From the NCBI GenBank assembly GCA_021372775.1, contig JAJFTU010000051.1:1-41214 (forward strand): a stretch of 41,214 nucleotides of DNA, in the 5' to 3' direction. The notes beneath the pieces are model-generated. The model worked only from the letters and a program-made list of their open reading frames with translations. It made no database searches and had not been told where the DNA came from. Shown here piece by piece: positions 1 through 19,443 of this stretch (position 1 is its first letter; each line of letters begins with the position of its first letter). The position numbers and the translations under genes were made by a program. Source of the stretch: a bacterium (GTDB lineage Bacteria; Acidobacteriota; Polarisedimenticolia; J045).

Positions 1-1945
<1,945 letters not shown>

Positions 1946-2425: not shown

Positions 2426-2902
2426 ATGGCCAAAGTACTGATGATCCATCCCGACAAATGCACCGGCTGCCACAACTGCGCCCTTGCCTGCGTCTTCGGG
2501 CACGAGGGCCAGTTCCGGCCGAGCGGCACGCGCGTCCACGTCTACTCGTGGGAACGCGAGGGCTTCTCGGTGCCGATGATGTGCCAGCAGTGCGACGACG
2601 CGTCCTGCGCGAAGGTCTGCCCGACCGGCGCGATGCACCGCGCCGCCGGCGCGTCGGTCGTCGAGTACGACCGCTCGAAGTGCATCGGCTGCCGCATGTG
2701 CACGGTCGCCTGCCCCTTCGGCAACGCGGTCTACGACGGCGTCACCGGCGCGATCCTGAAGTGCGACACCTGCAACGGCGATCCGGAGTGCGTGCGCGCC
2801 TGTCCCAGCGCCGCGCTCGAGTACGTGGACGACAACATCTCCACGCGGTCGCGCAAGAAGGCCTTCGCCGCCAAGTTCAAGGCGGCCTTCGTGGAGGGCT
2901 GA
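2426..2902 (+). CDS. Four-cluster [4Fe-4S] ferredoxin, AOR electron-transfer subunit (HycB/CooF type)
   Basis: A 158-residue iron-sulfur protein likely to carry electrons from the aldehyde oxidoreductase encoded 2 bp downstream to the membrane hydrogenase or a soluble acceptor. Sixteen cysteines form four ferredoxin motifs: C12/C15/C18/C22, C53/C56/C61/C65, C86/C89/C92/C96 and C113/C116/C122/C126. This is the pattern of the HycB/DmsB/CooF family. There is no signal peptide, so it is cytoplasmic. The ATG follows a GAGGAGAG ribosome site. It is the first gene after the sigma-54 promoter. Which protein it docks with is inferred from gene order. Confidence 0.93.
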   Translation: MAKVLMIHPDKCTGCHNCALACVFGHEGQFRPSGTRVHVYSWEREGFSVPMMCQQCDDASCAKVCPTGAMHRAAGASVVEYDRSKCIGCRMCTVACPFGNAVYDGVTGAILKCDTCNGDPECVRACPSAALEYVDDNISTRSRKKAFAAKFKAAFVEG

Positions 2903-2904
2903 GC

Positions 2905-4713
2905 ATGTTCGGCTGGAGCGGCACGGTCCTGCGCGTGAACCTGACCACCGGGACCATCAAGAAGGAAGCTCTCGACCGCAAGGACGCCGAACTGTTCCTC
3001 GGCGCGCGCGGCCTCGCCGACAAGATCTTCGTCGACGAAGTCGATCCGAAGGTCGATCCACTTTCCCCCGAGAACAAGATGATCTACGCGCCGGGGCCGT
3101 TCTCCGGCACGTTCGCCCCCTCCGGCGGCCGCTTCCACGTCGTGACGAAGAGCCCGCTGACCGGCGCGATCGCCGGCTCCAACTCCGGCGGCTCGTTCGG
3201 CCCGGAGCTCCACTACGCCGGCTACGACGCGCTGATCATCGAAGGGAAGGCGGCCAAGCCGTCCTACATCTGGATCAAGGACGACCACGTCGAGATCCGC
3301 GACGCCTCGCACGTCTGGGGCAAGTGGGTTCCCGACGCGACCGACATGCTGCGCGCCGAGACCGACGAGGAGGCGAAGGTCTCCTGCATCGGCCCCGCCG
3401 GCGAGAAGCTCGGCCTGATGGCCGTGATCATGAACGAGATGCACCGCGCGGCCGGCCGCTCCGGCGTCGGCGCGGTGATGGGCTCGAAGAACCTCAAGGC
3501 GGTCGTCGTCGTCGGCACCGGCTCGATCAAGGTCGCGCGGCCGGACGCCTTCAAGGCGGCGGTGGTCGAGGGGCGCAAGAAGCTCAAGGCGCACCCGGTC
3601 GGCGGCGCGGGCCTCAAGGCGTACGGCACCGACGTCCTCGTCAACATCCTCAACCAGATCGGCTCCCTGCCGACGCGCAACTTCCAGGACGGCTACTTCC
3701 CCACGGCCGACAAGGTCGGCGGCGAGTCGCTGAGCAAGAACCAGCTGGTGCGGCCGAAGGGCTGCTTCTCCTGCTACATCAGCTGCGGCCGCGTGAGCAA
3801 GGTCAAGAACCCGCTCTACGCCGGCGAAGGCGAGGGGCCGGAGTACGAGGCCGCCTGGTCGATGGGCCCGGACTGCGGCGTGGACGACCTCGACGTCGTG
3901 ACCCGCAGCAACCACCTCTGCAACGAACTCGGCCTCGACCCGATCTCCGTCGGCTCGACGATCGCCTGCGCGATGGAGATGTACGAGAAGGGGATCATCA
4001 CCAAGAAGGACACCGGCGGGCTCGACCTGAGCTTCGGTTCCGTCCCGATGATCCACGAGCTGACGAAGCAGATCGGCCTGCGCGAAGGGTTCGGCGACAA
4101 GCTCTCCTTCGGCTCCTACCGCTTCGCCGACTCCTACGGCCACCCCGAACTCTCGATGACGGTCAAGAAGCAGGAGATGCCGGCCTACGATCCGCGCGGC
4201 GTGCAGGGGATCGGCCTCGAGTACGCCACCTGCAACCGCGGCGGCTGCCACGTCAAGGGGTACACGATCGCCGTCGAGGTCCTCGGCTGCGGCGCGACCC
4301 TCGATCCGCGCGAGACGAAGGACAAGCCGGGCTGGGTGAAGCTGTTCCAGGACCTCACCGCGGCGATCGACGCCTCCGGCGGCTGCATCTTCGGCACCTT
4401 CGGCCTCGGCGGCGACGACTACGCGGCGATGATCACCGCGCTCACCGGCGTGACCTACACCGTGGAGGACTACCTCAAGGCCGGCGAGCGGATCTGGAAC
4501 CTCGAGCGGCTCTTCAACCTCAAGGCCGGCTTCACCGACGCCGACGACGTCCTCCCGACGCGCCTGACGAAGGACCTGCCGGTGCAGACCGGCCCGGCCA
4601 AGGGGCACCTCAGCCACGTGCCGGAGATGCTCCCCGAGTACTACCAGCTTCGCGGTTGGGACAAGCACGGCGTCCCGACCCAGGAACGGCTGCGCGACCT
4701 CGCGCTCGCCTGA
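2905..4713 (+). CDS. aor: Aldehyde:ferredoxin oxidoreductase (tungsten/molybdenum pterin enzyme)
   Basis: Oxidises aldehydes to carboxylic acids and passes two electrons to ferredoxin; the cofactor is a bis-pterin tungsten (or Mo) centre plus one [4Fe-4S] cluster. The protein has 602 residues, the normal family length. The N-terminal pterin-binding segment carries GPFSGTFAPSGGR, followed by SNSGGSFGPELHYAGYDA. Cluster ligands are C287, C290 and C294 (CFSCYISC) with C494 (GGCIFGTF) as the expected fourth. The ATG is 2 bp after the ferredoxin stop, so the two genes are co-transcribed and probably translationally coupled. A strong stem-loop follows. The family is clear; whether the metal is W or Mo, and which aldehyde is used, cannot be read from sequence. 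Confidence 0.95.
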   Translation: MFGWSGTVLRVNLTTGTIKKEALDRKDAELFLGARGLADKIFVDEVDPKVDPLSPENKMIYAPGPFSGTFAPSGGRFHVVTKSPLTGAIAGSNSGGSFGPELHYAGYDALIIEGKAAKPSYIWIKDDHVEIRDASHVWGKWVPDATDMLRAETDEEAKVSCIGPAGEKLGLMAVIMNEMHRAAGRSGVGAVMGSKNLKAVVVVGTGSIKVARPDAFKAAVVEGRKKLKAHPVGGAGLKAYGTDVLVNILNQIGSLPTRNFQDGYFPTADKVGGESLSKNQLVRPKGCFSCYISCGRVSKVKNPLYAGEGEGPEYEAAWSMGPDCGVDDLDVVTRSNHLCNELGLDPISVGSTIACAMEMYEKGIITKKDTGGLDLSFGSVPMIHELTKQIGLREGFGDKLSFGSYRFADSYGHPELSMTVKKQEMPAYDPRGVQGIGLEYATCNRGGCHVKGYTIAVEVLGCGATLDPRETKDKPGWVKLFQDLTAAIDASGGCIFGTFGLGGDDYAAMITALTGVTYTVEDYLKAGERIWNLERLFNLKAGFTDADDVLPTRLTKDLPVQTGPAKGHLSHVPEMLPEYYQLRGWDKHGVPTQERLRDLALA

Positions 4714-4722
4714 TTCGCGGAC

Positions 4723-4756
4723 GCGGCGCCGCCCCGAAGGACCGGGGCGGCGCCGC
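4723..4756 (+). terminator. Stem-loop between AOR and the hydrogenase genes
   Basis: A perfect 13-bp inverted repeat (GCGGCGCCGCCCC, 4723-4735, and its complement 4744-4756) has an 8-nt loop and starts 9 bp after the AOR stop. No real T-run follows (ATTCGTC), so it may be a weak terminator or an mRNA-processing or stabilising hairpin that sets different levels for AOR and the hydrogenase. Confidence 0.55.
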
Positions 4757-4864
4757 ATTCGTCTCCGCCCGCGCGCGGACCGCCGCGCGCCGCTCCACGG
4801 AACCACCGAGCCACAGGCTTCTTGCGGCGCGGCCGGCGCGCCGCCGACGACGACGAGGACTCCG

Positions 4865-4945
4865 ATGACTGGCCCCACGATGCGGCTTCGCCTTCCGGCC
4901 TTGGACGCGCGCGGCGCGGCTCGCCCGCGGCGGGGACGCCGATGA
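4865..4945 (+). CDS. Possible 26-residue leader ORF coupled to the antiporter gene
   Basis: An ATG at 4865, 7 nt after a GAGG, opens a frame of 26 codons, rich in Arg and Pro, whose TGA (4943-4945) overlaps the antiporter ATG (4942) as ATGA. The five junctions inside the downstream hydrogenase operon overlap in a similar way. It may be a translated leader that couples or tunes synthesis of the large membrane subunit, or chance. I recognise no homology. Confidence 0.3.
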   Translation: MTGPTMRLRLPALDARGAARPRRGRR

Positions 4946-7935
4946 CCGGCGGCGCGCTCGTTCTTCTTCCGCTCGGCGCGCTCGGCGTCGGCGTCGTTCT
5001 CGAACTGCTGCTCGCCGGACTGCTTTCGGCGCGCGCCAAGGGTTGGCTGGCCTTCGCCGCCGGCCTCGCCGCCTTCGCCGGCGTCGCCGCGGCCTGGCCG
5101 ACGATCCTCGCCGGCGGCGTCGTGGACGTTTCGCTCGGGAGCTGGGACGGACCTCTCGCCCTCGCCTACCACATCGACGGCCTCGGCTTCCTCTTCGCGA
5201 TGATGGGCGCGGGGATCGGCGCCGCGGTGCTGCTCTACTCGATCGGCTACATGGCGCGCGAGAAGGGGGCGACCCGCTTCTACGCGCTGATGCTCGCCTT
5301 CGTCGCCGGGCTGATCCACCTCGTCTACACCGCCGACCTGTTCATGCTCTACGTCGGCTGGGAGGCGGTCGGCCTCTGCTCTTTCCTGCTCGTCGGCTTC
5401 TGGTACCGCAACCCCGACTCCGCCTTCGGCGCGCGCAAGGTGCTGACGATGACGCACCTCGCCGGGTACGGGCTGCTGGCCGCCGTCGTGCTCCTCTATC
5501 TCCGCACCGGCTCGACGCTCTGGACCGACCCGCGCGCGCAGGGAGCGCTGACCGGAGGGATCTTCCTCCTCGCGCTCGTCGCCGCGGTCGGCAAGTCGGT
5601 GCAGTTCCCGCTGCACACCTGGATCCCCGACGCGATGGCCGCGCCGACGCCGGTGAGCGCGCTGCTTCACGCCGCCTGCTACGTCAAGGCCGGCGTCTAC
5701 CTCGTCGCGCGGCTCCACGGCTTCGGCCCCTGGCCCGCGGAATGGGGAATCGGCGTCTCCTGGCTCGGCGCGCTGACGATCCTCGTCGGCGTCCTCTTCG
5801 CCATGGCGCAGCACGACCTCAAGCGGTTGCTCGCCTTCCACACCGTGAGCCAGATCGGCTACATGATGCTCGGCCTCGGCCTCGGCACGCCGCTCGGCAT
5901 CGCCGCCGGCCTGCTGCACTGCCTCAACCACGGCCTGTTCAAGGGCGGGTTGTTCCTCTGCGCCGGCGCCGTGCAGCACGCCACGGGGACGCGCGACATG
6001 GACCGGATGGGCGGCCTCGGGCGCCGCATGCCGCGCACCGCCGCGCTCTGGCTGATCGTCGCCGGCGGCATCGCCGGCGTGCCGCTGCTCAACGGCTTCG
6101 TCTCCAAGTGGCTGCTCTACAACGCGGCGCTCGAGGCGAACCGCCCGCTGCTCGCGCTGATCCCGTGGGTCGGCAGCATCCTCACCGCCTTCTCCTTCCT
6201 CAAGGCGACGAGCGGCGTCTTCCTCGGGCCGGAAGGGCCCGACTCGGCGAAGGCGCACGAAGCGCCGTGGACGATGACCGCCGGCATCGCCGTCCTCGCC
6301 GCCGGCTGCGTGTTCATCGGCGTCGCGCCGCAGTTCGCCGTGAAGTACCTCGTCAACCCGCTGCTCCCCGCCCTCGGCTGCGCGCCGCTCGAAGGGGTCG
6401 GCTGGTTCGGTCTCGGCGTCGGGCAGGGCTCGTGGTACGCGACCGCCGGCCTCGGTCTCGGCCTCGTGGCCACGGCGATCGCGCTGATCGTCTACCTGAT
6501 CGCGCGTCCCGGCCGCGCCGCCCTCGCCGCCGACGGGGCGCCGACCGTCTTCACCGGCGGCGAGCCGCTCGGTCCGCAGGGCCGCCTCGCCGCGAGCGAC
6601 TTCTCGCTGATCGTCAAGCAGAACCTGGCGCCGTTCTACCGCGCCTTCGACGTGGACAAGCTCTACCTCGCGCTGTGGCGCGCGCTCGGCCGCGGCGCCT
6701 CCCTGCTCGACGTCCTCGCCCGCCGCGTCGAGGCCCACGGCGTCGCCGCGCTGCTCGTCGTCGCCGCCGCGCTCGCCGTCGGCGCGCTCGTCGTGCCCGT
6801 CGCCGTCGCCAACGTCCCCGACGCGCCGGCCCCCGCGGTCTGGCCGCTCGCCGCCGCCGTCGGCGTCGCGCTCGCCGGACTGCTCCTCGCGGCCGGCGCC
6901 TTCCCCGCCACGCGCCGCCTCGCGCCGGCCTTCGCCCTCGCCGGACTTCTCGCCGCCGGCGGCGCGCTGGCGCAGGACGGAATGCTCCGCGCCGTGCTGC
7001 TCGAGGTGGGCGCGGTCGTCGCGCTGCTCGTCGTCTGGCGCCGCGGATCGAACGCCGCGGGGCGCGCCTATCTCGTCGCCGTCGTCCTCTCCGCCGTCGG
7101 CACGCTCGGCGGCGCCTACGCCGCGGAGCAGGGGAACGCCGGCCTCGCCTTGGCGCTGCTCCTGCCGGGCGCGGCGATCAAGCTCGGCCTCGTGCCGCTC
7201 TGGTGCTGGCTGCCGACCGTCGCCGAAACGACCCCCGCGGTCGTCGCCGGCCTCGTGATCGGCGTCGTGGACGTCGCGGTCTTCGCCGAGCTGCTCGCGC
7301 TGCGCGCGACCGCCGGCTGGCTCTTCGTCCCCGCCGGTCCGTGGTTCGCGCTCGGCCTGCTCTCCGCCGCCGTCGGCGCGCTCCTCGCGCTCGCCGCGCG
7401 CGACCTCAAGCGGCTGCTCGCCTTCTCCACCGTCGAGGACATGGGGATGCTCCTCGTCGGCCTGACGCTGGGCGGGAAGTTCGGCCTCGAGGGCGCGATG
7501 CTCGGCGCGGCCGTCCACTCCCTCGCCAAGGCGCTGCTCTTCGCCTGCGTCGCCGCCCCCGAGGCGGCCGGCGCGGCGCCCGGCGCGCGCGGCCTGGCCT
7601 CGCGCCACCCCGTCGCCGCCGCCGGGTTCCTCGTCGGCGCGCTCGCCGTGCTCGGCGTCCCGCCGACCCTCGGCTACGCCGGCCACTGGCGCATCTTCTC
7701 CGCCGCGGCCGCCGAGCCGTGGCTGCTCGCCGCGCTCTGCGGGTGCGCGATGCTCTGCGTCGCGACCTACGCCCGCGCGGTGGCCCTCTTCTGGTGGGGC
7801 GGCGGCGATCCGCCCGAAGGCGAGGCCCCGGTCCGCCTCGGCGCGCCGGTCCTGCTGACGATCGCGATCGCGCTCCTCGCCGTCGCGCTGCTCGGCGCCG
7901 GGTTCTGGCCGGCGCTGGTCGGAGGCGCCGCATGA
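4942..7935 (+). CDS. Hydrogenase antiporter-like membrane subunit, double-module (CooM/HyfB type)
   Basis: Ion-translocating subunit of a group 4 membrane-bound [NiFe] hydrogenase, 997 residues, almost wholly hydrophobic. Residues 1 to about 560 form a complete NuoL/HyfB-type antiporter module with GWEAVGLCSFLLVGFW, the lysine helix GKSVQFPLHTWIPDAM, HDLKRLLAFHTVSQIGYM and HCLNHGLFKGGLF. Residues about 650-997 repeat the theme in shorter form: IKLGLVPLWCWLPTVAETTP, RDLKRLLAFSTVEDMGM and AVHSLAKALLF. The protein thus looks like an L-type and an N-type antiporter fused, as in CooM-like subunits, with two possible ion channels. The chosen ATG gives a hydrophobic N-terminus; the frame is open further upstream but reads as an unlikely charged leader. 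The stop overlaps the next gene by 4 bp. Confidence 0.88.
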   Translation: MTGGALVLLPLGALGVGVVLELLLAGLLSARAKGWLAFAAGLAAFAGVAAAWPTILAGGVVDVSLGSWDGPLALAYHIDGLGFLFAMMGAGIGAAVLLYSIGYMAREKGATRFYALMLAFVAGLIHLVYTADLFMLYVGWEAVGLCSFLLVGFWYRNPDSAFGARKVLTMTHLAGYGLLAAVVLLYLRTGSTLWTDPRAQGALTGGIFLLALVAAVGKSVQFPLHTWIPDAMAAPTPVSALLHAACYVKAGVYLVARLHGFGPWPAEWGIGVSWLGALTILVGVLFAMAQHDLKRLLAFHTVSQIGYMMLGLGLGTPLGIAAGLLHCLNHGLFKGGLFLCAGAVQHATGTRDMDRMGGLGRRMPRTAALWLIVAGGIAGVPLLNGFVSKWLLYNAALEANRPLLALIPWVGSILTAFSFLKATSGVFLGPEGPDSAKAHEAPWTMTAGIAVLAAGCVFIGVAPQFAVKYLVNPLLPALGCAPLEGVGWFGLGVGQGSWYATAGLGLGLVATAIALIVYLIARPGRAALAADGAPTVFTGGEPLGPQGRLAASDFSLIVKQNLAPFYRAFDVDKLYLALWRALGRGASLLDVLARRVEAHGVAALLVVAAALAVGALVVPVAVANVPDAPAPAVWPLAAAVGVALAGLLLAAGAFPATRRLAPAFALAGLLAAGGALAQDGMLRAVLLEVGAVVALLVVWRRGSNAAGRAYLVAVVLSAVGTLGGAYAAEQGNAGLALALLLPGAAIKLGLVPLWCWLPTVAETTPAVVAGLVIGVVDVAVFAELLALRATAGWLFVPAGPWFALGLLSAAVGALLALAARDLKRLLAFSTVEDMGMLLVGLTLGGKFGLEGAMLGAAVHSLAKALLFACVAAPEAAGAAPGARGLASRHPVAAAGFLVGALAVLGVPPTLGYAGHWRIFSAAAAEPWLLAALCGCAMLCVATYARAVALFWWGGGDPPEGEAPVRLGAPVLLTIAIALLAVALLGAGFWPALVGGAA

Positions 7936-8396
7936 GCGCGCTCTTCGGAAGCCTCGCCATGCGGCTCGTGGACCGCGCGCGACGCCGCTCGGCCTGGCTG
8001 TTCCACTTCAACTCCGGCTCGTGCAACGGCTGCGACATCGAGCTCGTCGCCTGCCTCACGCCGCGCTACGACGTGGAGCAGATCGGCGTCAAGCTCGAAG
8101 GGAGCCCGCGGCACGCCGACATCCTCTGCGTCTCCGGACCGGTGACGAAGACCACGGAGCAGGCGCTGCGGACGATCTACTCCCAAATGCCCGAGCCGAA
8201 GGCGGTCGTCGCGATCGGCTCCTGCCCCGCATCGTGCAACGTCTTCGCCGGCAGTCCCGTCGTCGCCGGCCCGCTCGAAAGGATCGTGCCGGTGGACGTC
8301 TACGTGGCCGGCTGCCCGCCGCGCCCGCACGCGATCGTGGACGGCGTCGCCAAGGCGATCGAGATCATGGTCGCGCGCGCCAAGGAGGGGCGATGA
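7932..8396 (+). CDS. Hydrogenase small subunit, NuoB/CooL-like
   Basis: Small subunit of the group 4 [NiFe] hydrogenase. It holds the [4Fe-4S] cluster next to the Ni-Fe site and hands electrons to it. It has 154 residues. The ligand set is C31 and C34 (SCNGCDIE), C98 (GSCPASCNVF) and C128 (AGCPPRP), as in NuoB, HycG, EchC and CooL. There is no Tat signal, which agrees with a complex facing the cytoplasm. The ATG overlaps the antiporter stop as ATGA, and the stop overlaps the NuoH-like start the same way. Taken alone this subunit could belong to complex I; the large subunit decides for hydrogenase. Confidence 0.92.
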   Translation: MSALFGSLAMRLVDRARRRSAWLFHFNSGSCNGCDIELVACLTPRYDVEQIGVKLEGSPRHADILCVSGPVTKTTEQALRTIYSQMPEPKAVVAIGSCPASCNVFAGSPVVAGPLERIVPVDVYVAGCPPRPHAIVDGVAKAIEIMVARAKEGR

Positions 8397-9313
8397 ACTT
8401 CGACCGCGCCCTCCTCGCGCTGCTCGTCTTCCCCGGGCTGCTCTACGCCGCGCCGATGGGCTGGCTGATGCTCGGCGTCGAGCGGCGCCTCGCCGCCCGC
8501 TTCGGCGCCCGGCTCGGCCCGCCGCTGACGCAGCCGTTCTGGGACTTCGTCAAGCTGCTCGCCAAGCGGCCCGCGCCGCGCGCAGCCGCCGACAAGACGC
8601 TGCTCGCGCTGCTGCCGCTCCTCGCCCTCGGCTCGATGCTCGGCGCCCTCGCCCTGCTGCCGGTCTTCGCCGACGGCACCGGCTTCGCCGGGGACCTGAT
8701 CCTGCTCGTCGGCCTGCTCGAGATGCCGCCGCTGCTGCTGGTCCTCGCCGGCTACGCCTCGCGCTCGATCTACGGCGAGGTCGGCGCGACGCGCGAGGCG
8801 GTGCTCTCCCTCGCCGGCGGCGTGCCGTTCCTCGCCGCGCTGATCGCGCTCGCCGCGGCGTCGGGCAGTCTGAGCCTCGCCCAGATCGCCGCCGCGGCGC
8901 CGTGGGCGGTGCGCGTTCCGGCGCTGGTCGCCCTGCTGCTCTGCCTGCCGGTCAAGCTGCGCGTCAATCCGTTCTCCGTCGCCAACGCCGAGCAGGAGAT
9001 CCTCGCCGGCCCGCTCACCGAGTACGACGGCCCGCGCCTCGCGCTCTGGGAGCTGACGCACGGCCTCGAGCGGGTCGCTCTCGCCGGCTTCGCCGCGGTC
9101 CTCGCCGTTCCGCTGCGCGACGCCCACCCGGCGCTCGCCGCGGTCGTCTTCGCCGCGCTCTCGCTCGTCGTCGTCGCGCTCCTCGCGACGGTCGGCGCCG
9201 CGACGGCGCGCTTCAAGCTCCGGCGCGCCGCGCGGTTCCTGTGGCGCTGGGCCTCGCTCGCCGCCGCGGCGGCGCTGGTCGCCGCCGCCGTGCTGCGCCA
9301 CTGGAGGGCCTGA
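8393..9313 (+). CDS. Hydrogenase membrane anchor subunit, NuoH/CooK-like
   Basis: Integral membrane subunit that links the hydrophilic hydrogenase arm to the antiporter subunit. It has 306 residues and about eight hydrophobic segments. Family marks include RLGPPLTQPFWDFVKLL near the N-terminus, the acidic loop SIYGEVGATREAVLSL, and NAEQEILAGPLTEYDGPRLALWEL, which carries the conserved glutamates of the NuoH quinone-loop region that group 4 hydrogenases reuse. Start and stop overlap the neighbours (ATGA upstream, TGATG downstream). In the R. rubrum coo operon the order is M-K-L, whereas here it is M-L-K. Confidence 0.9.
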   Translation: MNFDRALLALLVFPGLLYAAPMGWLMLGVERRLAARFGARLGPPLTQPFWDFVKLLAKRPAPRAAADKTLLALLPLLALGSMLGALALLPVFADGTGFAGDLILLVGLLEMPPLLLVLAGYASRSIYGEVGATREAVLSLAGGVPFLAALIALAAASGSLSLAQIAAAAPWAVRVPALVALLLCLPVKLRVNPFSVANAEQEILAGPLTEYDGPRLALWELTHGLERVALAGFAAVLAVPLRDAHPALAAVVFAALSLVVVALLATVGAATARFKLRRAARFLWRWASLAAAAALVAAAVLRHWRA

Positions 9314-9822
9314 TGTTCGACATCCTGCGCGTGATGGCGCGCAACATCGTCAAGGGACCGGCGACGGTCCGCCTCCCCGAGCACGCGCCCTCCCCGGCGA
9401 GATTCCGCGGCTACGTGCGGATCGACCCCGCGTCCTGCGTCGCCTGCGGCACGTGCGCCTACGTCTGCGTCGGGAACGCGATCGCCGGCGCGGAGGCGGA
9501 GAGCGGCTACGCCTGGTCCTACGACCCGGGGCGCTGCACGTTCTGCGAGCGCTGCGTCGATCACTGCCCCGGCGGCGCGCTGACGATGGACCCCGTTCCC
9601 GTGCCCCCCTACGTCGAGCGCGGCGAGCTCGACGAGATGGTCCTCGTGCCGTTCCCGACCTGCCCGCGCTGCGGCGCGCCGGTGCGTCCCGCCCCCGAAC
9701 CGTGGGTCGAGAAGCACTTCGCCGAAATGGACGAGGCGGGCCGCGCGGCGCTGCGCCTCTGCGTCCGCTGCCGCCGCATCCGGCTGCAGCGCGGCGTCTT
9801 CCCCACGGGAGAGAAGGCATGA
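9313..9822 (+). CDS. Hydrogenase iron-sulfur subunit, NuoI/CooX-like, with extra cysteine tail
   Basis: Two-[4Fe-4S] ferredoxin subunit that passes electrons from the soluble donor to the NuoB-like subunit. It has 169 residues. Clusters: C42/C45/C48/C52 and C75/C78/C81/C85. After the ferredoxin core a further 70 residues contain CPRC (C117, C120) and CVRC (C150, C153). This looks like a separate zinc-ribbon-type metal site and could be the docking face for the AOR-linked ferredoxin (inference). The ATG shares bases with the previous stop (TGATG), and its own stop overlaps the NuoC-like start. Confidence 0.9.
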   Translation: MFDILRVMARNIVKGPATVRLPEHAPSPARFRGYVRIDPASCVACGTCAYVCVGNAIAGAEAESGYAWSYDPGRCTFCERCVDHCPGGALTMDPVPVPPYVERGELDEMVLVPFPTCPRCGAPVRPAPEPWVEKHFAEMDEAGRAALRLCVRCRRIRLQRGVFPTGEKA

Positions 9823-10223
9823 GCGCGGAAGAGATCCGCAAGAACGTCGGCGGCGCGTGGGCCGAGCGGGCCGACGGCTTTTGGCTCGACGTTCCGGCGA
9901 GCCGCGTGCGCGAAGTCGCGGCCGCGATGCGCACCGGCTCGACGCGCTTCGCCGCCCTCGTCGCCCGCCCCGCGGGAGACGGGCTGCGCCTCTCGTGGCA
10001 CTGGGACGACGCGGGAACGCTCCTCTCGATCGTCGCCGATCTCGCCCCCGGCGAGGCGGCGCCGAGCGTCGTGGACATCTGGCCCGGCGCCGACTGGGCG
10101 GAACGCGAGACGCGCGAGTACTACGCCGTCGCCTTCGCCGGACGGGCCGACACGGCGCCGCTGATGCTGCGCGACGGCGACGAGCCGGGCGTGATGCTGC
10201 CGGGCCGCGGGGAGGGCCGATGA
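9819..10223 (+). CDS. Hydrogenase subunit, NuoC/CooU-like
   Basis: Short (134 residues) homologue of the 30-kDa complex I subunit, which packs against the large subunit and helps assembly. The diagnostic C-terminal segment is DIWPGADWAERETREYYAVAF, matching the NuoC signature (F/W-x-x-A-x-W-x-E-R-E-x-x-D/E). The region after it ends in MLRDGDEPGVMLPGRGEGR. It is separate from the large subunit, not fused as in HycE or HyfG. Start and stop both overlap neighbours by 4 bp. Assignment rests on the signature and on position directly before the large subunit. Confidence 0.85.
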   Translation: MSAEEIRKNVGGAWAERADGFWLDVPASRVREVAAAMRTGSTRFAALVARPAGDGLRLSWHWDDAGTLLSIVADLAPGEAAPSVVDIWPGADWAERETREYYAVAFAGRADTAPLMLRDGDEPGVMLPGRGEGR

Positions 10224-11296
10224 GCTACGAGATCCCGATCGGTCCCTACCACGTCGCGCTCGAAGAGCCGTACAAGATCGACGTCCGCTGCGAGGGGGAA
10301 ACCGTCGTCGGCTCGTCGCTGAAGGTCGGCTTCAACTTCCGCGGCATCGAGTGGCTCGGACAGCGGAAGAACATCACCCAAGCCACGGCGCTGATGGAGC
10401 GGGTCTGCGGCATCTGCTCCAACGTCCACTCGATGACCTTCTGCATGGCGCTCGAGCGGATCGGCGGCATCGAGGTTCCGCCCCGCGGCCAGTACGTGCG
10501 GGTGGTGATGGCCGAACTCGAGCGGCTCCACTCCCACCTGCTCTGGGCGGGGGTCGCCGCCGAGCTGATCGGCTTCCAGACCCTCTTCATGCGCTGCTTC
10601 CAGCTCCGCGAAGGGGTGATGGACCTGCTGGAGAAGATCTCCGGCAACCGCGTCAACTACTCGATGAACCGCGTCGGCGGCGTCAACCGCGACGTGACCT
10701 GCGGCGACGAGATCCGCGCCGCGGTCGGCGCGATCCGCGAGGAGACGGTCCGCTCGCTGATCCCGATCTTCACCAAGGACCGCGGCGTCGCCGCGCGCTG
10801 CGCCGGCGTCGGCGTGCTCACGCGCGACGACGCGCTCGCCCTCGGCGCGGTCGGGCCGGTGGCCCGCGCGTCGGGCGTCGACTGCGACCTGCGCCGCGAC
10901 GCCCCCTATCTCGTCTACGACCAGCTCCAGTTCGCCGTGCCGACGCGGAGCGAAGGGGACGTCTTCGCCCGCGTCGTGGTCCGGGCGCTCGAGATCCTCG
11001 AAAGCTGCAGCCTCGTCGAACAGGCGCTCGACCGGATGCCCGAAGGGCCGCTCAACCGCGGCGACATCTACGCCGTCGCGCCGGGCGAGGCGGTGATGCG
11101 GGTCGAGGCGCCGCGGGGCGAGGTCTTCTACTTCGTCGCCAGCGACGGGAGCGACGTCGCCGCGCGCGTAAAGGTGAGGACGCCGACCTTCCCCAACATC
11201 CCGACCGTCCAACCGATGGTCCTCGGGGCCGATCTCGCGGACGTGCCGCTGATCCAAGCCTCGATCGACCCTTGCTACTCCTGCACGGACAGGTAG
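10220..11296 (+). CDS. Group 4 [NiFe] hydrogenase catalytic large subunit, CooH/NuoD-like
   Basis: Catalytic subunit carrying the Ni-Fe centre that reduces protons to H2 (or the reverse). It has 358 residues. The N-terminal ligand motif is RVCGICSNVH with C63, C66 and H70; the C-terminal motif is DPCYSCTDR with C352 and C355. All four Ni-binding cysteines are present, so this is a hydrogenase and not complex I NuoD, which lacks them. The protein ends three residues after C355, so the C-terminal peptide that a maturation protease normally removes is missing, as I recall for CooH. Last gene of the six-gene operon; a hairpin follows. No hyp maturation genes are in the window. Confidence 0.93.
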   Translation: MSYEIPIGPYHVALEEPYKIDVRCEGETVVGSSLKVGFNFRGIEWLGQRKNITQATALMERVCGICSNVHSMTFCMALERIGGIEVPPRGQYVRVVMAELERLHSHLLWAGVAAELIGFQTLFMRCFQLREGVMDLLEKISGNRVNYSMNRVGGVNRDVTCGDEIRAAVGAIREETVRSLIPIFTKDRGVAARCAGVGVLTRDDALALGAVGPVARASGVDCDLRRDAPYLVYDQLQFAVPTRSEGDVFARVVVRALEILESCSLVEQALDRMPEGPLNRGDIYAVAPGEAVMRVEAPRGEVFYFVASDGSDVAARVKVRTPTFPNIPTVQPMVLGADLADVPLIQASIDPCYSCTDR

Positions 11297-11419: not shown

Positions 11420-12271
11420 ATGAAACGCGCAACGCTGTTCGCCGTCGTCTTCGCCGCCGTCGCGGCGCTCTCGGCCGGCGCCGCCCACGCCGGCGCGCCG
11501 TTCGTCAACCTCGAAGGAGTCGGAGGCATCGCCTTCAACCCCGTCGCCTACCTCGCCGGCTCGGAGCCGGGCGCGCAGATCGGGCCGCTGGAGATCGGCA
11601 AGCCGCGCGTCGGCGTGTGGTACATCGACCTCAGCGACTCGTCGATCGACTGGACGCCGGTCGGGGTCGCCACGTCGTTCAACAAGCGGCTGGAGGTCTC
11701 CTACGGCTTCGAGTCGATCGCCGTCGAAGGGCTCGCCAACATCCACAAGAAGACCATCGGCGCGAAGCTGCTCGTGGTCAACGAGAACGCCGCGGGGACG
11801 AAGTGGATCCCGGCGATCTCGATCGGCGCGAAGCACAAGAGCACGTCGTTCCCGTTCGCCGAGAACAAGAGCGGCATGGACTACTACGTCGTGGCCACCA
11901 AGCTGATCACCCAGGCCCCGAAGCCGATCCTCGTCTCGATCGGCGCGCAGTCCACGAAGGAGCAGGTCACCGGCGCCATCGGCTTCAACAACGAGCGCAA
12001 GGTGATCGGCTTCGCCAACGTCGACGTCATCCCGACGAGCTGGCTCTGCCTCGGCGTCGAGTTCCGCCAGGGCCCGGACTACGGCCCGGCCGGCGGCAAC
12101 TACAAGGACGCGAACTACTACAACGTCCACGCGGGCTTCTTCGTCGACAAGAACCTGTCGTTCGCGATCGCCTACACCAACGCCGGCGAGAACACCTTCA
12201 ACGGCGGCAAGACCGGCAGCTCGCTGGGCTTCGGCGGCGGGCTCGTCGTCGGCGTCCAGTACGCCTTCTGA
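11420..12271 (+). CDS. DUF3034-like outer-membrane beta-barrel protein
   Basis: An exported protein of 283 residues with a clear signal peptide (MKRATLFAVVFAAVAALSAGAAHA) cut before GAPF. The mature part alternates polar and hydrophobic residues (for example RLEVSYGFESIAV, TIGAKLLVV, WIPAISIGAKHK, SWLCLGVEFRQGP) and ends in QYAF, a C-terminal phenylalanine typical of outer-membrane barrels. The order of these segments resembles DUF3034 proteins. Strong ribosome site AAGGAGGGAC. It lies downstream of the hydrogenase operon behind a hairpin and has its own terminator-like hairpin, so it is probably a separate unit. Barrel nature is likely; cargo is unknown. Confidence 0.75.
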   Translation: MKRATLFAVVFAAVAALSAGAAHAGAPFVNLEGVGGIAFNPVAYLAGSEPGAQIGPLEIGKPRVGVWYIDLSDSSIDWTPVGVATSFNKRLEVSYGFESIAVEGLANIHKKTIGAKLLVVNENAAGTKWIPAISIGAKHKSTSFPFAENKSGMDYYVVATKLITQAPKPILVSIGAQSTKEQVTGAIGFNNERKVIGFANVDVIPTSWLCLGVEFRQGPDYGPAGGNYKDANYYNVHAGFFVDKNLSFAIAYTNAGENTFNGGKTGSSLGFGGGLVVGVQYAF

Positions 12272-12373: not shown

Positions 12374-14101
12374 ATGCGCCGACTTCTCCCCCTCGCCGCC
12401 GCCGCGCTCGTCCTCGCCTGTCTTCCGGCCGAGGCGGGGCTCTTCGACTGGCTGAAGGGGAAGCGCCCCCCGATCGCGGCGGTCTACGACGCCGAGTTCC
12501 GCGGCTTCGTCCCGGTGCTGCGGGGCGTCGAGCGTCCCGACCTCGCCGCCGACGAGACGGGGCGGCTGCCGGCGGAACGCCGCGACGCGGAGCGCCGCGC
12601 GCGGCGCCGCCTGCGCAAGGCCGACGCGCCGTTCGCGCCCCCCGCGCCGCCGAAGGCGCCGTCCAAGCGCTGGCTGCGCCGGCGCGCCGTGACGACCGAG
12701 CTCTTGGTCCTCGACCCGTACGGCCGTCCCGTCGCCGGGGCGCGCCTCTACCGCTACGTCGACCCATCGTTCCGCACCGTCAACCAGGACGAGGGCGGGG
12801 CGCGCCTCTTCGGCGCCTGGCGCTACCTGCCGCGCCCCTTCCCCGCCGACGAGGCGCGCGCCTTCGCCGCCGCGCTCGATCCGTTCTGGCGCGCGACGTC
12901 GTTCGCCGGGGCGCGCGAGGAGACGCCGGACATCGACGAGCGGCGCAACCCCTGGCTGCGGACCCGCCCCGCGCCGCCGCTCGAGTACGTCGGCGCGACG
13001 AACGAGAGCGGCCTGGCGCAGGTTTCGTCGGGGCCGTTCAACGTGCGGGACAAGGAGAAGTTCCCGCGCGCCACGGCGCCGGAGGCGCTGCGCCTCGGGT
13101 TCGTCGTCGTCGCCGACGGCTTCCTCCCCGCGACGAGCGAGGCGCGGCTGAAGAAGGACGGCGTCTTCGAGTCGCGGAGCGTGATGCTGGCCTTGGCGCC
13201 CGACCACGACCTCTTCGTCTCCGGCGCCTGGCGCGCCGCCGCCGCGCTCGCCGCCGCACCGCCGCCGGACGGCGACGCGGCGCGGAGCGGCGACGCGGCG
13301 CGGAGCGACGACGCGGCGCGGAACGACGACGCGGCGCGGAGCGACGACGCGGCGCGGAACGACGCCGACGACGCGGACGGCGCGGAGGAGCGGCGCGTCG
13401 CGCGGGCGCTCGCCGCGCTCGACGACACGTTCTATCTCCTCGCCCCGGACGCGCGCGCCGCCGCGCGGCGGGAGGCGGAAGCGCGGCTCTGGGGGATCGT
13501 CGCCGCGCGGTCGCCCGGCGCGACGCGCGTCCGCTTCCTGCGGCGCGCCGCGGACGCGACCCCCGACGACCCGGCGCGCGCCGCCGCGCTCGGCCTCGCC
13601 CTCGCCGGACCGCGCCTCGCCGACGCCGCGCCGGTCGTCCCGCAGCGTCCCGCCCCGCCCGACGCCGCGCTCGACGAGGCGGAGCGGCTGCTGGCGAAGG
13701 CGCTGGTCCGCGAGCCGCGTCTCGTCGTCGTCTGTCCGACGCTCGACGCGCTTCTCGTCCGCCGCGGCGCGGGGGACGACGAGCGGCGGCCCCACGTCGC
13801 GGCGCTGCTGCGCCTCCTGCCGTTCGACGCCTGGGGCGAGGCGCGCGAGGCGGTCTTTCTCCTCCGCGCGGGACGGGACGCGGAGGCGTTCGACCGCCTG
13901 CGCAGCGGCTACCTCGCCGCGCCGGGGCTCGGCGCCGACCGCGAGCTGGCGATCGCGCTCAGCGCCCACTTCTGGCGCGCCGGGCTGCCGGAGAAGGCCG
14001 CGGCCTACTCCTGGCTCCTCGCCGGCCGGGCGCCGGAGGATCCGACGGCGCGCCCGCGCTACGCCGAGGAGCGGGGCGCCGCGTCGCCGGGCGCCCGATA
14101 A
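12374..14101 (+). CDS. Exported protein of unknown function with six-residue repeats and an alpha-helical C-terminal half
   Basis: I do not recognise this 575-residue protein. A signal peptide (MRRLLPLAAAALVLACLPAEA) with a Cys six residues before the predicted cut suggests export, perhaps as a lipoprotein. Residues about 105-290 look like beta-rich carrier or carboxypeptidase-regulatory-like material (TTELLVLDPYGRPVAGARLYRY, YVGATNESGLAQVSSGPF). Residues about 300-329 are five copies of a (G/D)DAAR(S/N) repeat. The C-terminal half is Ala/Leu/Arg-rich helix with a TPR-like look. No ribosome site is visible; a TACGAT box ends 6 nt before the ATG, which suggests a leaderless mRNA. It precedes a kinase-like gene by 7 bp, so the two may be co-expressed. 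Confidence 0.7.
   Translation: MRRLLPLAAAALVLACLPAEAGLFDWLKGKRPPIAAVYDAEFRGFVPVLRGVERPDLAADETGRLPAERRDAERRARRRLRKADAPFAPPAPPKAPSKRWLRRRAVTTELLVLDPYGRPVAGARLYRYVDPSFRTVNQDEGGARLFGAWRYLPRPFPADEARAFAAALDPFWRATSFAGAREETPDIDERRNPWLRTRPAPPLEYVGATNESGLAQVSSGPFNVRDKEKFPRATAPEALRLGFVVVADGFLPATSEARLKKDGVFESRSVMLALAPDHDLFVSGAWRAAAALAAAPPPDGDAARSGDAARSDDAARNDDAARSDDAARNDADDADGAEERRVARALAALDDTFYLLAPDARAAARREAEARLWGIVAARSPGATRVRFLRRAADATPDDPARAAALGLALAGPRLADAAPVVPQRPAPPDAALDEAERLLAKALVREPRLVVVCPTLDALLVRRGAGDDERRPHVAALLRLLPFDAWGEAREAVFLLRAGRDAEAFDRLRSGYLAAPGLGADRELAIALSAHFWRAGLPEKAAAYSWLLAGRAPEDPTARPRYAEERGAASPGAR
13271..13360. repeat. 18-bp minisatellite, five copies, inside a gene
   Basis: Five direct copies of an 18-bp unit (first copy GGCGACGCGGCGCGGAGC) at 13271, 13289, 13307, 13325 and 13343. 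They differ only at the first G/A and at GAGC/GAAC. The unit is a multiple of three, so copy-number change would lengthen the encoded GDAARS/DDAARN linker without a frameshift. Confidence 0.9.
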
Positions 14102-14792: not shown

Positions 14793-17021
14793 TCAGGGCT
14801 CGCCGATCAGGGCGCGCCACCAGAGGGCGCGCGGACCGTGCCCTTCGCCGTACTCCGGGATCTCCGCCTTGAGCGCGGCGATCGGCGCGGGCGCCTCCGC
14901 CGCCTCGGGCGCCGGAACCGGCGCGGCCTCGACGGGCTCCGCCGCGCGCGCCGGCGCGGGCGCGGGCTTCACGGCCTCCGCCGCGGCGACGCTCGGCGTC
15001 TCCGGTTCTTCGGCCGTCTCCGGCGCCTCGCCGGGCGTCCCTTCGGCGGACGCGCCCTGCGCGGCGGCCGCGCCGCCCTTGCGGCCGCGGCGACGGCGGC
15101 GACGACGCTTCTTGGACGGCGCGGCGACCTCGCCGCCCTCGCCCTCGGGCGCGGCGACGGTCCCTTCGGCCGGCGCGGCGGCCCCTTCCTCGGGTTCCTC
15201 GTCGCCGAAGATGTCGGACATGATCGCCCCTTCGACCGACGAGAAGTCCCCGCCCTCCGCGGCCGGCGCCGCGCCCGCGGCGCCCGCCTCGCCCTGCTCC
15301 TCCGGACGGCGGTGCTTGCGGCCGCCGCGGCGGCGACGGCGCTTCTTCTTGCCCGCGCCCTCGGCCGCCGGCGCGCCTTCGGCCTCCTCCGCGGCGCCGG
15401 CTTCCGGCGCCTCGGCGGCCGCCTTCGCGCGCGCCGCCTCGGCCGCGCGGGCTTCCTCCGCCTCGCGCGCCTCGTCGGCCTCGACCTCGGCGATGATCTC
15501 GGTGTGGCTCGGCGCGACGACGAGCGGCGCGGCCTCGGCGGCCCGTTCGCGCACGACGGTCCGCATCTCGCAGCGGTCGCGGATGTACTCGGGATCGCCC
15601 TTGACGAGGATCCGCGTGTGGTACCGCTCCTCCCAGGAGCCGAGATCCTGCCGCTTGGCGTTGAGCAGGTAGTCGCAGACCTCGGGCGGCACCGTGATCT
15701 CGATGTTCTCGAGGTCGCCGCGGACGACGGTCGTCTGCAGCCGCCGCAGCGCCTGCACCGCCGCCGCCTCGACCGTCTTGATCGAGCCGGTTCCCTCGCA
15801 CTGCGGACAGTCGGTGTAGCGCAGCGAGGACTTCCCCGCGGCCAGCCGCTCGCGGCTGATCTCCATCAGCCCGAGCGAGGAGATCCGCGTCGCGTCCCAG
15901 CGCGCCTTGTCCTTCTTGAGCTCGTCCTTCATCGTGCGCTCGACGTCGCGGATGTTCTTGCGCGAGCGCATGTCGATGAAGTCGATCACCACCAGCCCGC
16001 CGAGGTCGCGCAGCCGCATCTGCCGCGCGATCTCCCGCGCCGCCTCGATGTTCGCCTTGAACGCGGTGTCCTCGACCGTCCCCTCCTGCGTCATCTTGCT
16101 GGAGTTGACGTCCACGGCGGTCAGCGCCTCGGTGACGTCGAAGACGACCGCGCCGCCCGAGGGGAGCGTGACGCGCCGGCGGAAGATGTTCTCGATCTGT
16201 TCTTCGAGGTTGTACTTGTTGAAGATCGGCTTCTCGCCCTGGTGGAGCTTGACCGCGCTCTTCTTCTGCGGCAGGGCGATCTCGAAGAACTCGACGATCT
16301 CCTCGGCCGTCCGCGGGTCGTCGACGAGGATCTCGTCGATCTCCGGCGTCATCAGGTCGCGGATCGTGCGGATGACGAGGCTCCGCTCCTTGTAGATCAG
16401 CTTCGGCCCGCGCACCGTGCGCGAGGCCTCCTCGATCGTCTCCCAGACCCGCAGCAGGTACTTGAGGTCGCGCGCCAGCTCGGTCTTCGTCGACGACGCC
16501 CCCGCCGTGCGCACGATCACGCCGTGCTCCTCGGGGACGTCCAGCGCGTCGAGCGCCTTGCGCAGCCGGTCGCGCTGCTTCTCGTCGAGCTTGCGGGAGA
16601 TGCCGGCGCCGTCGGCGTGCGGCGTCAGCACGAGGTAGCGGCCGGGGAGCGAGAAGTAGGTCGAGAGCGTCGGCGGCTTGTTGGCGTAGGCGTCGCGCAC
16701 GACCTGGACCAAGATCTCCTGGCCCTTGTGGAGGTGGTTTTCGAGCCGCCCCTTCTGCGCCCCTTCCTTGCGCGGGGGGTGGAGCTTGAAGTTGACCTCG
16801 TCGAGCGGCAGGAAGCCGGCCCGCGCGCCGCCGATGTCCACGAAGGCGGCCTGCAGCCCCGGCTGCACCGACTCGACCCGCCCCTTGTAGATGTTCCCCT
16901 TCTGCGCCTTGTGGTCGAAGGTCTCGATCTCAAATCCTTCGAGCACCCCGTCGGCCACGATCGCCACCCGGCTCTCCTCGGCGTGGGTGACGTTGATCAG
17001 CATTTTCTTCTTTTCGGACAC
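14793..17021 (-). CDS. Ribonuclease E/G family endoribonuclease with long basic/acidic tail
   Basis: Single-strand-specific endoribonuclease that starts mRNA decay and processes rRNA. It has 742 residues. The S1 RNA-binding region (QKGNIYKGRVESVQPGLQAAFVDIG) is near residues 40-130. The catalytic DNase I-like part has VVFDVTEALTAVDVNSSKM and LGGLVVIDFIDM with the metal-binding aspartates. The zinc-link CPQCEGTG follows. From about residue 505 the protein is a low-complexity Ala/Glu/Pro tail with two Arg/Lys patches (GKKKRRRRRGGRKHRR and KKRRRRRRRGRKGG), ending in a short ordered-looking PRALWWRALIGEP. The start is GTG at 17021, with GGAG 8 nt upstream; the first in-frame ATG is at codon 7. 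It lies 39 bp after the radical SAM gene in the same direction. Confidence 0.93.
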   Translation of the reverse strand: MSEKKKMLINVTHAEESRVAIVADGVLEGFEIETFDHKAQKGNIYKGRVESVQPGLQAAFVDIGGARAGFLPLDEVNFKLHPPRKEGAQKGRLENHLHKGQEILVQVVRDAYANKPPTLSTYFSLPGRYLVLTPHADGAGISRKLDEKQRDRLRKALDALDVPEEHGVIVRTAGASSTKTELARDLKYLLRVWETIEEASRTVRGPKLIYKERSLVIRTIRDLMTPEIDEILVDDPRTAEEIVEFFEIALPQKKSAVKLHQGEKPIFNKYNLEEQIENIFRRRVTLPSGGAVVFDVTEALTAVDVNSSKMTQEGTVEDTAFKANIEAAREIARQMRLRDLGGLVVIDFIDMRSRKNIRDVERTMKDELKKDKARWDATRISSLGLMEISRERLAAGKSSLRYTDCPQCEGTGSIKTVEAAAVQALRRLQTTVVRGDLENIEITVPPEVCDYLLNAKRQDLGSWEERYHTRILVKGDPEYIRDRCEMRTVVRERAAEAAPLVVAPSHTEIIAEVEADEAREAEEARAAEAARAKAAAEAPEAGAAEEAEGAPAAEGAGKKKRRRRRGGRKHRRPEEQGEAGAAGAAPAAEGGDFSSVEGAIMSDIFGDEEPEEGAAAPAEGTVAAPEGEGGEVAAPSKKRRRRRRRGRKGGAAAAQGASAEGTPGEAPETAEEPETPSVAAAEAVKPAPAPARAAEPVEAAPVPAPEAAEAPAPIAALKAEIPEYGEGHGPRALWWRALIGEP

Positions 17022-18279: not shown

Positions 18280-19443
18280 ATGTCGCTCCCCCCGCCGGGC
18301 GAACTGCGCAAGTACTACGTTCCGGAGGTCGTCTTCGGCGAGAGCGCTCTCGACCTGTGCGGGCGGTACGCGTCGAATCTCGGCGCGCGCCGCGTCCTCC
18401 TGGTCAGCGATCCCGGCGTCGAGGCGGCCGGCTGGACCGGCATGGCGGCCGACGCCCTGAGCCGCGAGCGGCTCGACGTTTCGACGTTCCTCGACGTCAC
18501 GCCCAACCCGCGCGAGGCCGAGGTCGAGCGGGGGGTCGATCTCTACCGCCGCGACGGCTGCAACGTCATCGTCGCCGTCGGCGGGGGCAGCCCGATCGAC
18601 TGCGCCAAGGGGATCGCGATCCTCGCCGGCAACGGCGGCGCGATCGGCGCCTACAAGGGGATCGACGAGATTCCCCTGCCGGGCCCGCCCCTCGTCGCGG
18701 TCCCGACGACCTGCGGCAGCAGCGCCGACGTCTCCCAGTTCGCCGTCATGCGCGACGTGGCGCGCGAAACGAAGTACGTCCTCGCCAGCCGCAAGATCGT
18801 CCCCGACGTTTCGCTGACCGATCCGCGCGTCGTCACGACGCTGCCGCCCGACGTCGCCGGCGCCGTGGGGATGGACGTCCTCTCCCACGCGCTCGAGGCC
18901 TGCTGCTCCAACGCCGGATGGGCGCTCACCACGGCCCACGCCCTCTCGGCGATGCGGCGGGTCGCCGCCGCCCTGCCGCGCTTCGTCGCCGACCGCGCCG
19001 ACCGCGCCGCGGCGGCGCAAATGATGATGGCAAGCCTGGAGGCCGGCTTCGCCTTCTCGAACGCCAGCCTCGGCCTCGTCCACGCAATGTCCCATCCGCT
19101 GGGCGGCCGGCTCGACCTCCCCCACGGGCTCTGCAACGCGCGGCTGCTGGCGACGGTCGTCGCCTACAACTTCCCCGCGGCGCGCGACGAGTACGCCCGC
19201 GCCGCGGAGGCGCTCGGCGTCGCGACGCAGGGCGACGAGGAAGTCTGGCGGGCCGAGTTCGTCGAGCGCATCGAGCGGCTGTCGGCCCTCGCCGGCCCGC
19301 GCCGCGCGCTGGCCGACGGCGGCCTCAAGCGCGAGGACGCGCCGTTGCTCGCGGAGCGGGCGCTCGCCGACGTCTGCATCGTGACCAACCCGCGGCGGCC
19401 GACCGCCGCCGAGGTGGCGGCGCTCTATGAACAAGTCTGCTGA
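18280..19443 (+). CDS. ercA: Iron-containing alcohol dehydrogenase-like protein, ErcA type
   Basis: A group III (iron) alcohol dehydrogenase homologue of 387 residues closely resembling ErcA, an ADH-like protein tied to control of ethanol oxidation in Pseudomonas. Marks: NAD-binding GGGSPIDCAKG (101-111), TTCGSSADVSQFAV, and metal ligands D199, H203, H268 and H282 with the same spacing as FucO (D196, H200, H263, H277). H272 of HAMSHPLGG is also present. It therefore looks able to bind metal and NAD, and could be enzyme, sensor or both. Ribosome site GGAGGGCCG before ATG. Its last 17 bp overlap the start of a hybrid histidine kinase, the arrangement expected for ErcA with its signalling partner. 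Confidence 0.85.
   Translation: MSLPPPGELRKYYVPEVVFGESALDLCGRYASNLGARRVLLVSDPGVEAAGWTGMAADALSRERLDVSTFLDVTPNPREAEVERGVDLYRRDGCNVIVAVGGGSPIDCAKGIAILAGNGGAIGAYKGIDEIPLPGPPLVAVPTTCGSSADVSQFAVMRDVARETKYVLASRKIVPDVSLTDPRVVTTLPPDVAGAVGMDVLSHALEACCSNAGWALTTAHALSAMRRVAAALPRFVADRADRAAAAQMMMASLEAGFAFSNASLGLVHAMSHPLGGRLDLPHGLCNARLLATVVAYNFPAARDEYARAAEALGVATQGDEEVWRAEFVERIERLSALAGPRRALADGGLKREDAPLLAERALADVCIVTNPRRPTAAEVAALYEQVC

Follow-up and report, generated by a model that had tools for sequence, protein, structure and literature searches.

A predicted aldehyde hydrogenlyase: conserved linkage of an aldehyde oxidoreductase with a group 4 [NiFe] hydrogenase in three bacterial phyla

Is an aldehyde oxidoreductase (AOR) encoded side by side with a [NiFe] hydrogenase simply its neighbor, or could the two belong to one system that converts aldehyde electrons into H2? 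The question is raised by contig JAJFTU010000051.1 of bacterial assembly GCA_021372775.1 (Acidobacteriota; Polarisedimenticolia; J045), of which positions 1 to 41,214 of the forward strand were analyzed. This full stretch of 41,214 nt is called the window below, and the cluster under study occupies 2426–11296 (+). A preliminary description of this DNA had reported a four-cluster ferredoxin and an AOR followed by six overlapping genes for a group 4 [NiFe] hydrogenase with all four Ni cysteines. All eight genes were confirmed and found to be intact, in the order AorA-AOR-M-L-K-X-U-H, as follows.

2426..2902, + strand: AorA/WorS-type ferredoxin, 158 amino acids (aa), with 16 Cys and four [4Fe-4S] motifs
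2905..4713, + strand: AOR large subunit, tungsten-type aldehyde:ferredoxin oxidoreductase, 602 aa, with AFOR_N and AFOR_C over the whole length
4942..7935, + strand: antiporter-like membrane subunit M, about 997 aa (start codon uncertain), with two Proton_antipo_M stretches (Pfam)
7932..8396, + strand: NuoB/HycG-like small subunit L (Oxidored_q6, 104 bits)
8393..9313, + strand: NuoH/HycD-like membrane anchor K (NADHdh, 153 bits)
9313..9822, + strand: NuoI/HycF-like subunit X, with two [4Fe-4S] motifs and a C-terminal extension
9819..10223, + strand: NuoC-like subunit U (Complex1_30kDa, 46 bits)
10220..11296, + strand: NuoD-like [NiFe] large subunit H, 358 aa (Complex1_49kDa and NiFeSe_Hases)

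From sequence comparison and structural modeling, we consider it likely that these eight genes form one functional unit, an "aldehyde hydrogenlyase" predicted to convert aldehyde electrons into H2 with concomitant ion pumping.

Among solved structures, the ferredoxin scored best with 9mqx_E (162 bits) and 8c0z_C, the AorA of Aromatoleum aromaticum (142 bits), followed by HycB 7z0s_B (83 bits). It had been described as CooF-like and is instead AorA, the best matches being small subunits of other AORs. The large subunit scored 792 bits with 9mqx_D, 712 bits with the AOR of Pyrococcus furiosus (1aor), 616 bits with A. aromaticum AorB, and 219 bits with BamB. Its FeS Cys ligands (CxxCxxxC...C), Glu315 (P. 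furiosus Glu313) and His449 (P. furiosus His448) were conserved, and an alignment showed that these ligands and the Glu/His pair were likewise kept in eight further cluster AORs. Judged by its domains, FeS ligands, and catalytic Glu and His, the protein is assigned to the AORs sensu stricto. The six hydrogenase genes overlap by 1–4 bp. H carries the Ni ligands Cys 63, 66, 352, and 355 in the motifs CGIC and CYSC and matched the P. furiosus membrane-bound hydrogenase (MBH) subunit 6cfw_L across the full length (288 bits). Both CxxC Ni motifs, together with the complex-I-like small, membrane, and antiporter subunits, place the predicted enzyme in group 4 of the [NiFe] hydrogenases; with antiporter-like and NuoH-like subunits encoded, it is by gene content an energy-converting hydrogenase, for which ion pumping is predicted.

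The preliminary description took the AOR and its ferredoxin to be the electron-input module of the hydrogenase and named conserved adjacency in other genomes as a check. The order AorA-AOR-(MoaD)-M-L-K-X-U-H was indeed found in 16 further clusters, giving, with the window included, 17 clusters in 16 genomes (eight of Acidobacteriota, four of Actinomycetota, and four of Pseudomonadota); named carriers were Streptomyces cavernae, Edaphobacter aggregans, Azospirillum lipoferum 4B, Azospirillum oryzae, and Azospirillum thermophilum. The window's host was counted with the Acidobacteriota, as the sample from its own phylum and that of the Holophagaceae comprise identical genomes with matching contig coordinates. 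When H was used as the query against 84,980 species genomes, six homologues with 65–78% identity were detected, all with the same AorA-to-H order, and none of the 38 loci with H identity of 36% or less had an AOR match. Further whole-genome searches yielded clusters in G599 and G601 with 75–76% H identity, two genomes that each consist of one contig (5.0 and 5.2 Mb), and three other clusters (G1255, G1276, and G1336) showed 60–61%. Plasmid records contained five clusters from four Azospirillum species or strains, with H identities of 55–56% and M split into two genes. AOR linkage was complete both in the clusters with H identity of at least 60% (12 of 12, window included) and in those of Azospirillum (5 of 5). 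Viewed from the AOR side, the five plasmid records with AOR identity of at least 60% were exactly the five carrying this hydrogenase; the next plasmid AORs had 54% and below, and the two inspected, at 52–54%, had no adjacent hydrogenase. A. lipoferum 4B has the complete cluster twice, on plasmids AZO_p2 and AZO_p4 (L143 and L144), an advantage for genetic work.

Seventeen clusters in three phyla rule out chance adjacency. Distribution of the cluster was patchy, a close H homologue being present in 3 of 247 Propionicimonas relatives and 1 of 248 Streptomyces relatives. In the family to which the window's genome belongs, 11 members were sampled and none had one, which rules out a vertical trait of that family. 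In the AOR tree, 14 linked AORs formed one clade (support 100/99) as opposed to 17 unlinked ones, and pairwise identities of AOR and H correlated at 0.87, compared with 0.95–0.98 among the hydrogenase subunits tested. In the H tree, all linked members and two AOR-less loci, L135 and L159 (58–59% identity), made up a clade with support of 100/100; L135 and L159 were nested inside the linked members with weak support (81/65), so that AOR-linked H was not resolved as one clade. These comparisons suggest that the AOR and hydrogenase genes appear to have travelled together. The core of the input-module claim withstood the check on adjacency, the genes being neighbors in other genomes of three phyla; evolution of H2 and pumping of ions stay at the level of prediction.

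The hydrogenase part that co-varies with the AOR is the following segment of X.

9661..9771, + strand: Cys quartet C117-x2-C120-x29-C150-x2-C153 of X, putative HycF-type metal site and docking extension, kept in 17 of 17 clusters

A CxxC-x(23–29)-CxxC quartet was present at the matching place of X in every AOR-linked cluster. It was absent from X of the AOR-less L135 and L159, both of the same hydrogenase clade, and also from six Mbh/Mrp-like clusters, their near-duplicate, and one Ech-like cluster, and it was found in the Hyf cluster L146. Two other acidobacterial group 4 hydrogenases, L101 (G051) and L102 (G090), have adjoining formate-dehydrogenase-like and diaphorase-like genes. In X of L101 the tail contains four Cys and the spacer is longer, and L102 is an exception with only one Cys pair despite its formate-dehydrogenase-like neighbor. 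In the formate hydrogenlyase (FHL) of Escherichia coli, the HycF quartet consists of C117, C120, C155, and C158, and the extension bearing it contacts HycB (PMC9474812). AorA is the counterpart of HycB, and X that of HycF. The AlphaFold model of X had a mean predicted local distance difference test score (pLDDT) of 65.7, with C-terminal blocks at 71–83; when it was compared with the whole PDB, the best match was E. coli HycF 7z0s_F (E 1.1e-08, 164 columns), followed by NuoI of complex I (1.4e-04, 117 columns). The Cys quartet and the modeled fold both identify X, the putative docking subunit, as being of the HycF type, and the "aldehyde analogue of formate hydrogenlyase" suggested in the preliminary description turned out to be the better half of that reading.

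For the eight gene products we infer a physical complex that would work as follows. AOR, with a tungsten-bis-pterin cofactor, would oxidize aldehyde to acid. Electrons would pass from the tungsten cofactor and the AOR cluster through the four clusters of AorA, the two of X, and that of L, and would then reduce protons to H2 at the [NiFe] site of H; AorA would dock on the C-terminal Cys-quartet extension of X. This exergonic step would be coupled via the NuoH-like K to ion export, for which M would provide its two antiporter modules. The potentials are about −0.58 V for acetate/acetaldehyde and −0.41 V for H+/H2, and from these textbook values the acetaldehyde-to-H2 step would be worth about −32 kJ for each mol of aldehyde oxidized. 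Oxidation of CO to H2, which drives the Coo enzyme, yields about 20 kJ per mol, less than the aldehyde route.

We also lean towards a fuller version, in which the cluster would encode a membrane-bound, energy-conserving aldehyde:H+ oxidoreductase that has spread horizontally through three phyla, with AorA seated on the HycF-like X and AorAB units possibly stacked as a nanowire. The nanowire was considered because the C-terminal tail of AorA aligns with the filament-helix region of A. aromaticum AorA. This tail (residues 138–158) is conserved: in an alignment of six sequences, R141, R143, K144, K150, K152, and F155 did not vary. Taken alone, an AOR-decorated nanowire of several AorAB units on one hydrogenase has a far lower probability than the other parts of the reading.

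Between AOR and M lies a gap of 228 bp (4714–4941), which had not been mentioned in the preliminary description.

4723..4756, + strand: 14-bp G+C hairpin without a U tract, in the AOR-M gap

RNA folding of 4710–4790 gave −59.1 kcal/mol (z −4.47), and the hairpin is possibly an attenuator, a processing element, or a termination element. Because of this gap and its hairpin, co-transcription of AOR and M is not to be assumed from spacing alone. A MoaD-family gene was found in 16 of the 17 clusters, the window being the sole exception; it follows AOR in thirteen relatives, and in the other three a pair of ThiF/MoeB-like and MoaD genes follows H. The AOR-M gap of the window was searched for a MoaD remnant and contained none. 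An assembly artefact may account for the missing MoaD; as the source of the cluster itself it was rejected, since the cluster is also present on complete plasmids and in G599 and G601, genomes of one contig each. The window's genome has three ThiS-family loci at other places. It also encodes another, distantly related member of the AOR family (32% identity) at G000:C405:3478-4953, and some 600 bp downstream of this gene there is a ThiS-family match. Genes for cofactor synthesis and maturation were seen as well, within or next to many of the clusters: HypA follows the hydrogenase in relatives, accompanied in L052 by HypB, HypF, HypC, HypD, and HypE; in Actinomycetota, the clusters are bordered by MoeA- and MoeB-like genes; and HypD was found in all seven genomes checked, that of the window included.

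Several points weigh against the one-complex interpretation. The hairpin-bearing gap and the missing MoaD in the window are two of them; the mean pLDDT of the X model is modest, the quartet of X could bind any HycB-like partner, and the hosts Streptomyces, Azospirillum, and Edaphobacter are mainly aerobic. In a looser arrangement, AOR would reduce a soluble ferredoxin pool used by the adjacent energy-converting hydrogenase, and adjacency would serve shared regulation or maturation only. This is the usual arrangement of AOR and MBH in Thermococcales; here the gap with its hairpin parts the two modules, and Mbh/Mrp-like relatives at 43–49% have no AOR, indicating that related hydrogenases work without it. 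Loose coupling is nevertheless unlikely in view of AorA, a dedicated small subunit kept with AOR in all clusters, and of the FHL docking extension on X, which occurs only alongside HycB/AorA-type input and is absent in AOR-less relatives of the same clade; the best fold match of the X model to HycF also points away from it.

The system might alternatively run in reverse, with H2 and the ion gradient driving reduction of carboxylic acids to aldehydes and then alcohols, by which acids would be detoxified or alcohols formed. The AOR of A. aromaticum can take electrons from H2 for the reduction of acids (PMC9295118, PMC12096430), FHL-type enzymes are reversible (PMC9474812), and the window contains, 7 kb downstream, a gene of the Fe-alcohol-dehydrogenase family. 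This direction is thermodynamically uphill under standard conditions; furthermore, the family closest to the alcohol-dehydrogenase-like gene is ErcA, a regulatory one, and no such gene was seen near the other clusters, which makes net operation in reverse rather improbable. Still another kind of hydrogenlyase would result if the tungsten enzyme used a substrate other than aldehyde, as BamB does with benzoyl-CoA. For the majority of AOR/WOR clades no substrate is known, and BamB combines the same fold with changed chemistry (PMC13328260). We give this possibility very little credence, as the window AOR is much nearer to true AORs (792, 712, 657, and 616 bits) than to BamB and keeps their Glu/His pair; these scores and active-site residues disfavor a BamB-like function. 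An aldehyde-oxidizing, H2-evolving complex is preferred here.

The AOR-less L135 (1797–8099) has a bearing on the aldehyde part of this proposal. Three genes from its hydrogenase lies a gene for a molybdenum aldehyde oxidoreductase of the Desulfovibrio gigas type (1205 bits to 1sij; NCBIfam equivalog 1531 vs a cut-off of 1100). This gene, a DUF3034 gene, and a sigma-54 activator gene are all situated divergently upstream of the hydrogenase. This arrangement, seen in one genome only, hints that the aldehyde oxidase was replaced and that aldehydes are a recurring theme.

Sequences around the cluster, of which the divergent sigma-54 activator and the putative sigma-54 promoter had likewise been missed in the preliminary description, included the following features.

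2..1945, − strand: sigma-54-dependent activator (GAF + AAA+), divergent from the cluster (Pfam Sigma54_activat, 223 bits, and GAF); C-terminus cut by the contig end
2274..2289, + strand: putative sigma-54 (−24/−12) promoter TGGCCCGCGGATTGCA, 152 bp upstream of aorA
11420..12271, + strand: DUF3034 protein (PF11231), possibly of the outer membrane; recurrent neighbor

The putative promoter was the only match to TGGCACGNNNNTTGCW with no more than one mismatch in 41 kb, the expected number being 0.17, and a one-mismatch sigma-54 site was also present upstream of aorA in Edaphobacter (L053). Sigma-54 activators adjoin the cluster in L138, L139, and L135, that of L135 being alignable with the window's over 566 aa (36%). 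DUF3034 genes are located beside the cluster in L138, L053, and L135, and a homologue 70% identical occurs at the edge of L139. The recurrence of DUF3034 and sigma-54 activators was seen in Acidobacteriota. Farther downstream in the window, 12374–14101 encodes a 575-aa protein with no Pfam match and a run of SGDAARSDDAARND-like repeats, and 14793–17021 (−) an RNase E/G family protein of 742 aa with a thioredoxin-like domain. In the region 18280–21040, the Fe-dependent alcohol-dehydrogenase-like gene, for which ErcA was the nearest family (486 bits against a cut-off of 550), precedes a gene for a PAS hybrid histidine kinase; the two resemble an alcohol-sensing pair of the ErcA/ErcS type.

If the proposal is true, a single complex would lead from aldehydes to H2 and an ion gradient, as is the case for formate and for CO; one more interchangeable input module would be added to the complex-I superfamily, and the tungsten oxidoreductases would gain an energy-conserving class absent from the five-class scheme of 2026. 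It would also help to explain how soil bacteria considered aerobic could release H2 and remove aldehydes. The carriers are culturable, so the idea is directly testable.

Among known systems, E. coli FHL-1 (FdhF-HycBCDEFG, group 4a) resembles the cluster in its predicted path from a pterin metalloenzyme through a four-cluster ferredoxin, a quartet-bearing subunit of the HycF type, and HycG to the [NiFe] site, as well as in the complex-I-like membrane arm; Cys117 and Cys120 have identical residue numbers in X and HycF. Differences from FHL-1 include 1) a tungsten-type AOR in place of the formate dehydrogenase FdhF as the input; 2) separate genes, U and H, for the NuoC and NuoD parts that are fused in HycE; 3) the lack of a cleavable extension on H, which, as a comparison of C-termini showed, ends at DPCYSCTDR, with no gene seen for a peptidase like HycI; and 4) two antiporter modules in M. 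With the four-cluster ferredoxin and HycF quartet but neither FdhF nor a fused, cleaved HycE, the enzyme falls outside group 4a on these criteria.

CooMKLXUH-CooFS (group 4c) shares with it a minimal hydrogenase of six subunits, one large antiporter-like protein, and a dedicated low-potential input via ferredoxin. Unlike the Coo system, the cluster has an AorA-type ferredoxin, a HycF-like X with the quartet, and the order M-L-K-X-U-H rather than M-K-L-X-U-H, and CooS was absent among the predicted cluster and flanking genes of the window and the relatives examined. The earlier designation "Coo-type", with CooS/CooF swapped for another input, was not established, no CO dehydrogenase being present; a group 4c label would rest on subunit count, is unproven, and lacks its defining CooS/CooF module.

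AorABC of A. aromaticum, a class III tungsten oxidoreductase (WOR) that forms the W-AOR nanowire, has homologues of AorA and AorB here, the C-terminal region of AorA being alignable. Its AorC, the FAD/NAD subunit, would be replaced by a membrane-bound, predicted ion-pumping hydrogenase, and no gene for an AorC-type subunit was found in the cluster, either that of the window or those of the relatives examined. The classification of tungsten oxidoreductases of 2026 has five classes, none hydrogenase-linked (PMC13328260), and no description of this cluster was found in the open-access literature, subscription literature and preprints being outside the search. Aldehyde oxidation is also tied to H2 in D. 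gigas, for which an aldehyde-to-H2 chain of four soluble proteins was reconstituted in vitro (PMC10223205), and a Mop-type gene is located near the AOR-less sister L135. That Mop chain differs in using another aldehyde oxidoreductase family, in having no ion-pumping hydrogenase, and in not being one gene cluster. Similar to what is predicted here, P. furiosus AOR and MBH deliver AOR electrons to H2 with ion pumping; there the two enzymes are separate and communicate via soluble ferredoxin, whereas here they are encoded in one cluster with its own ferredoxin and docking extension.

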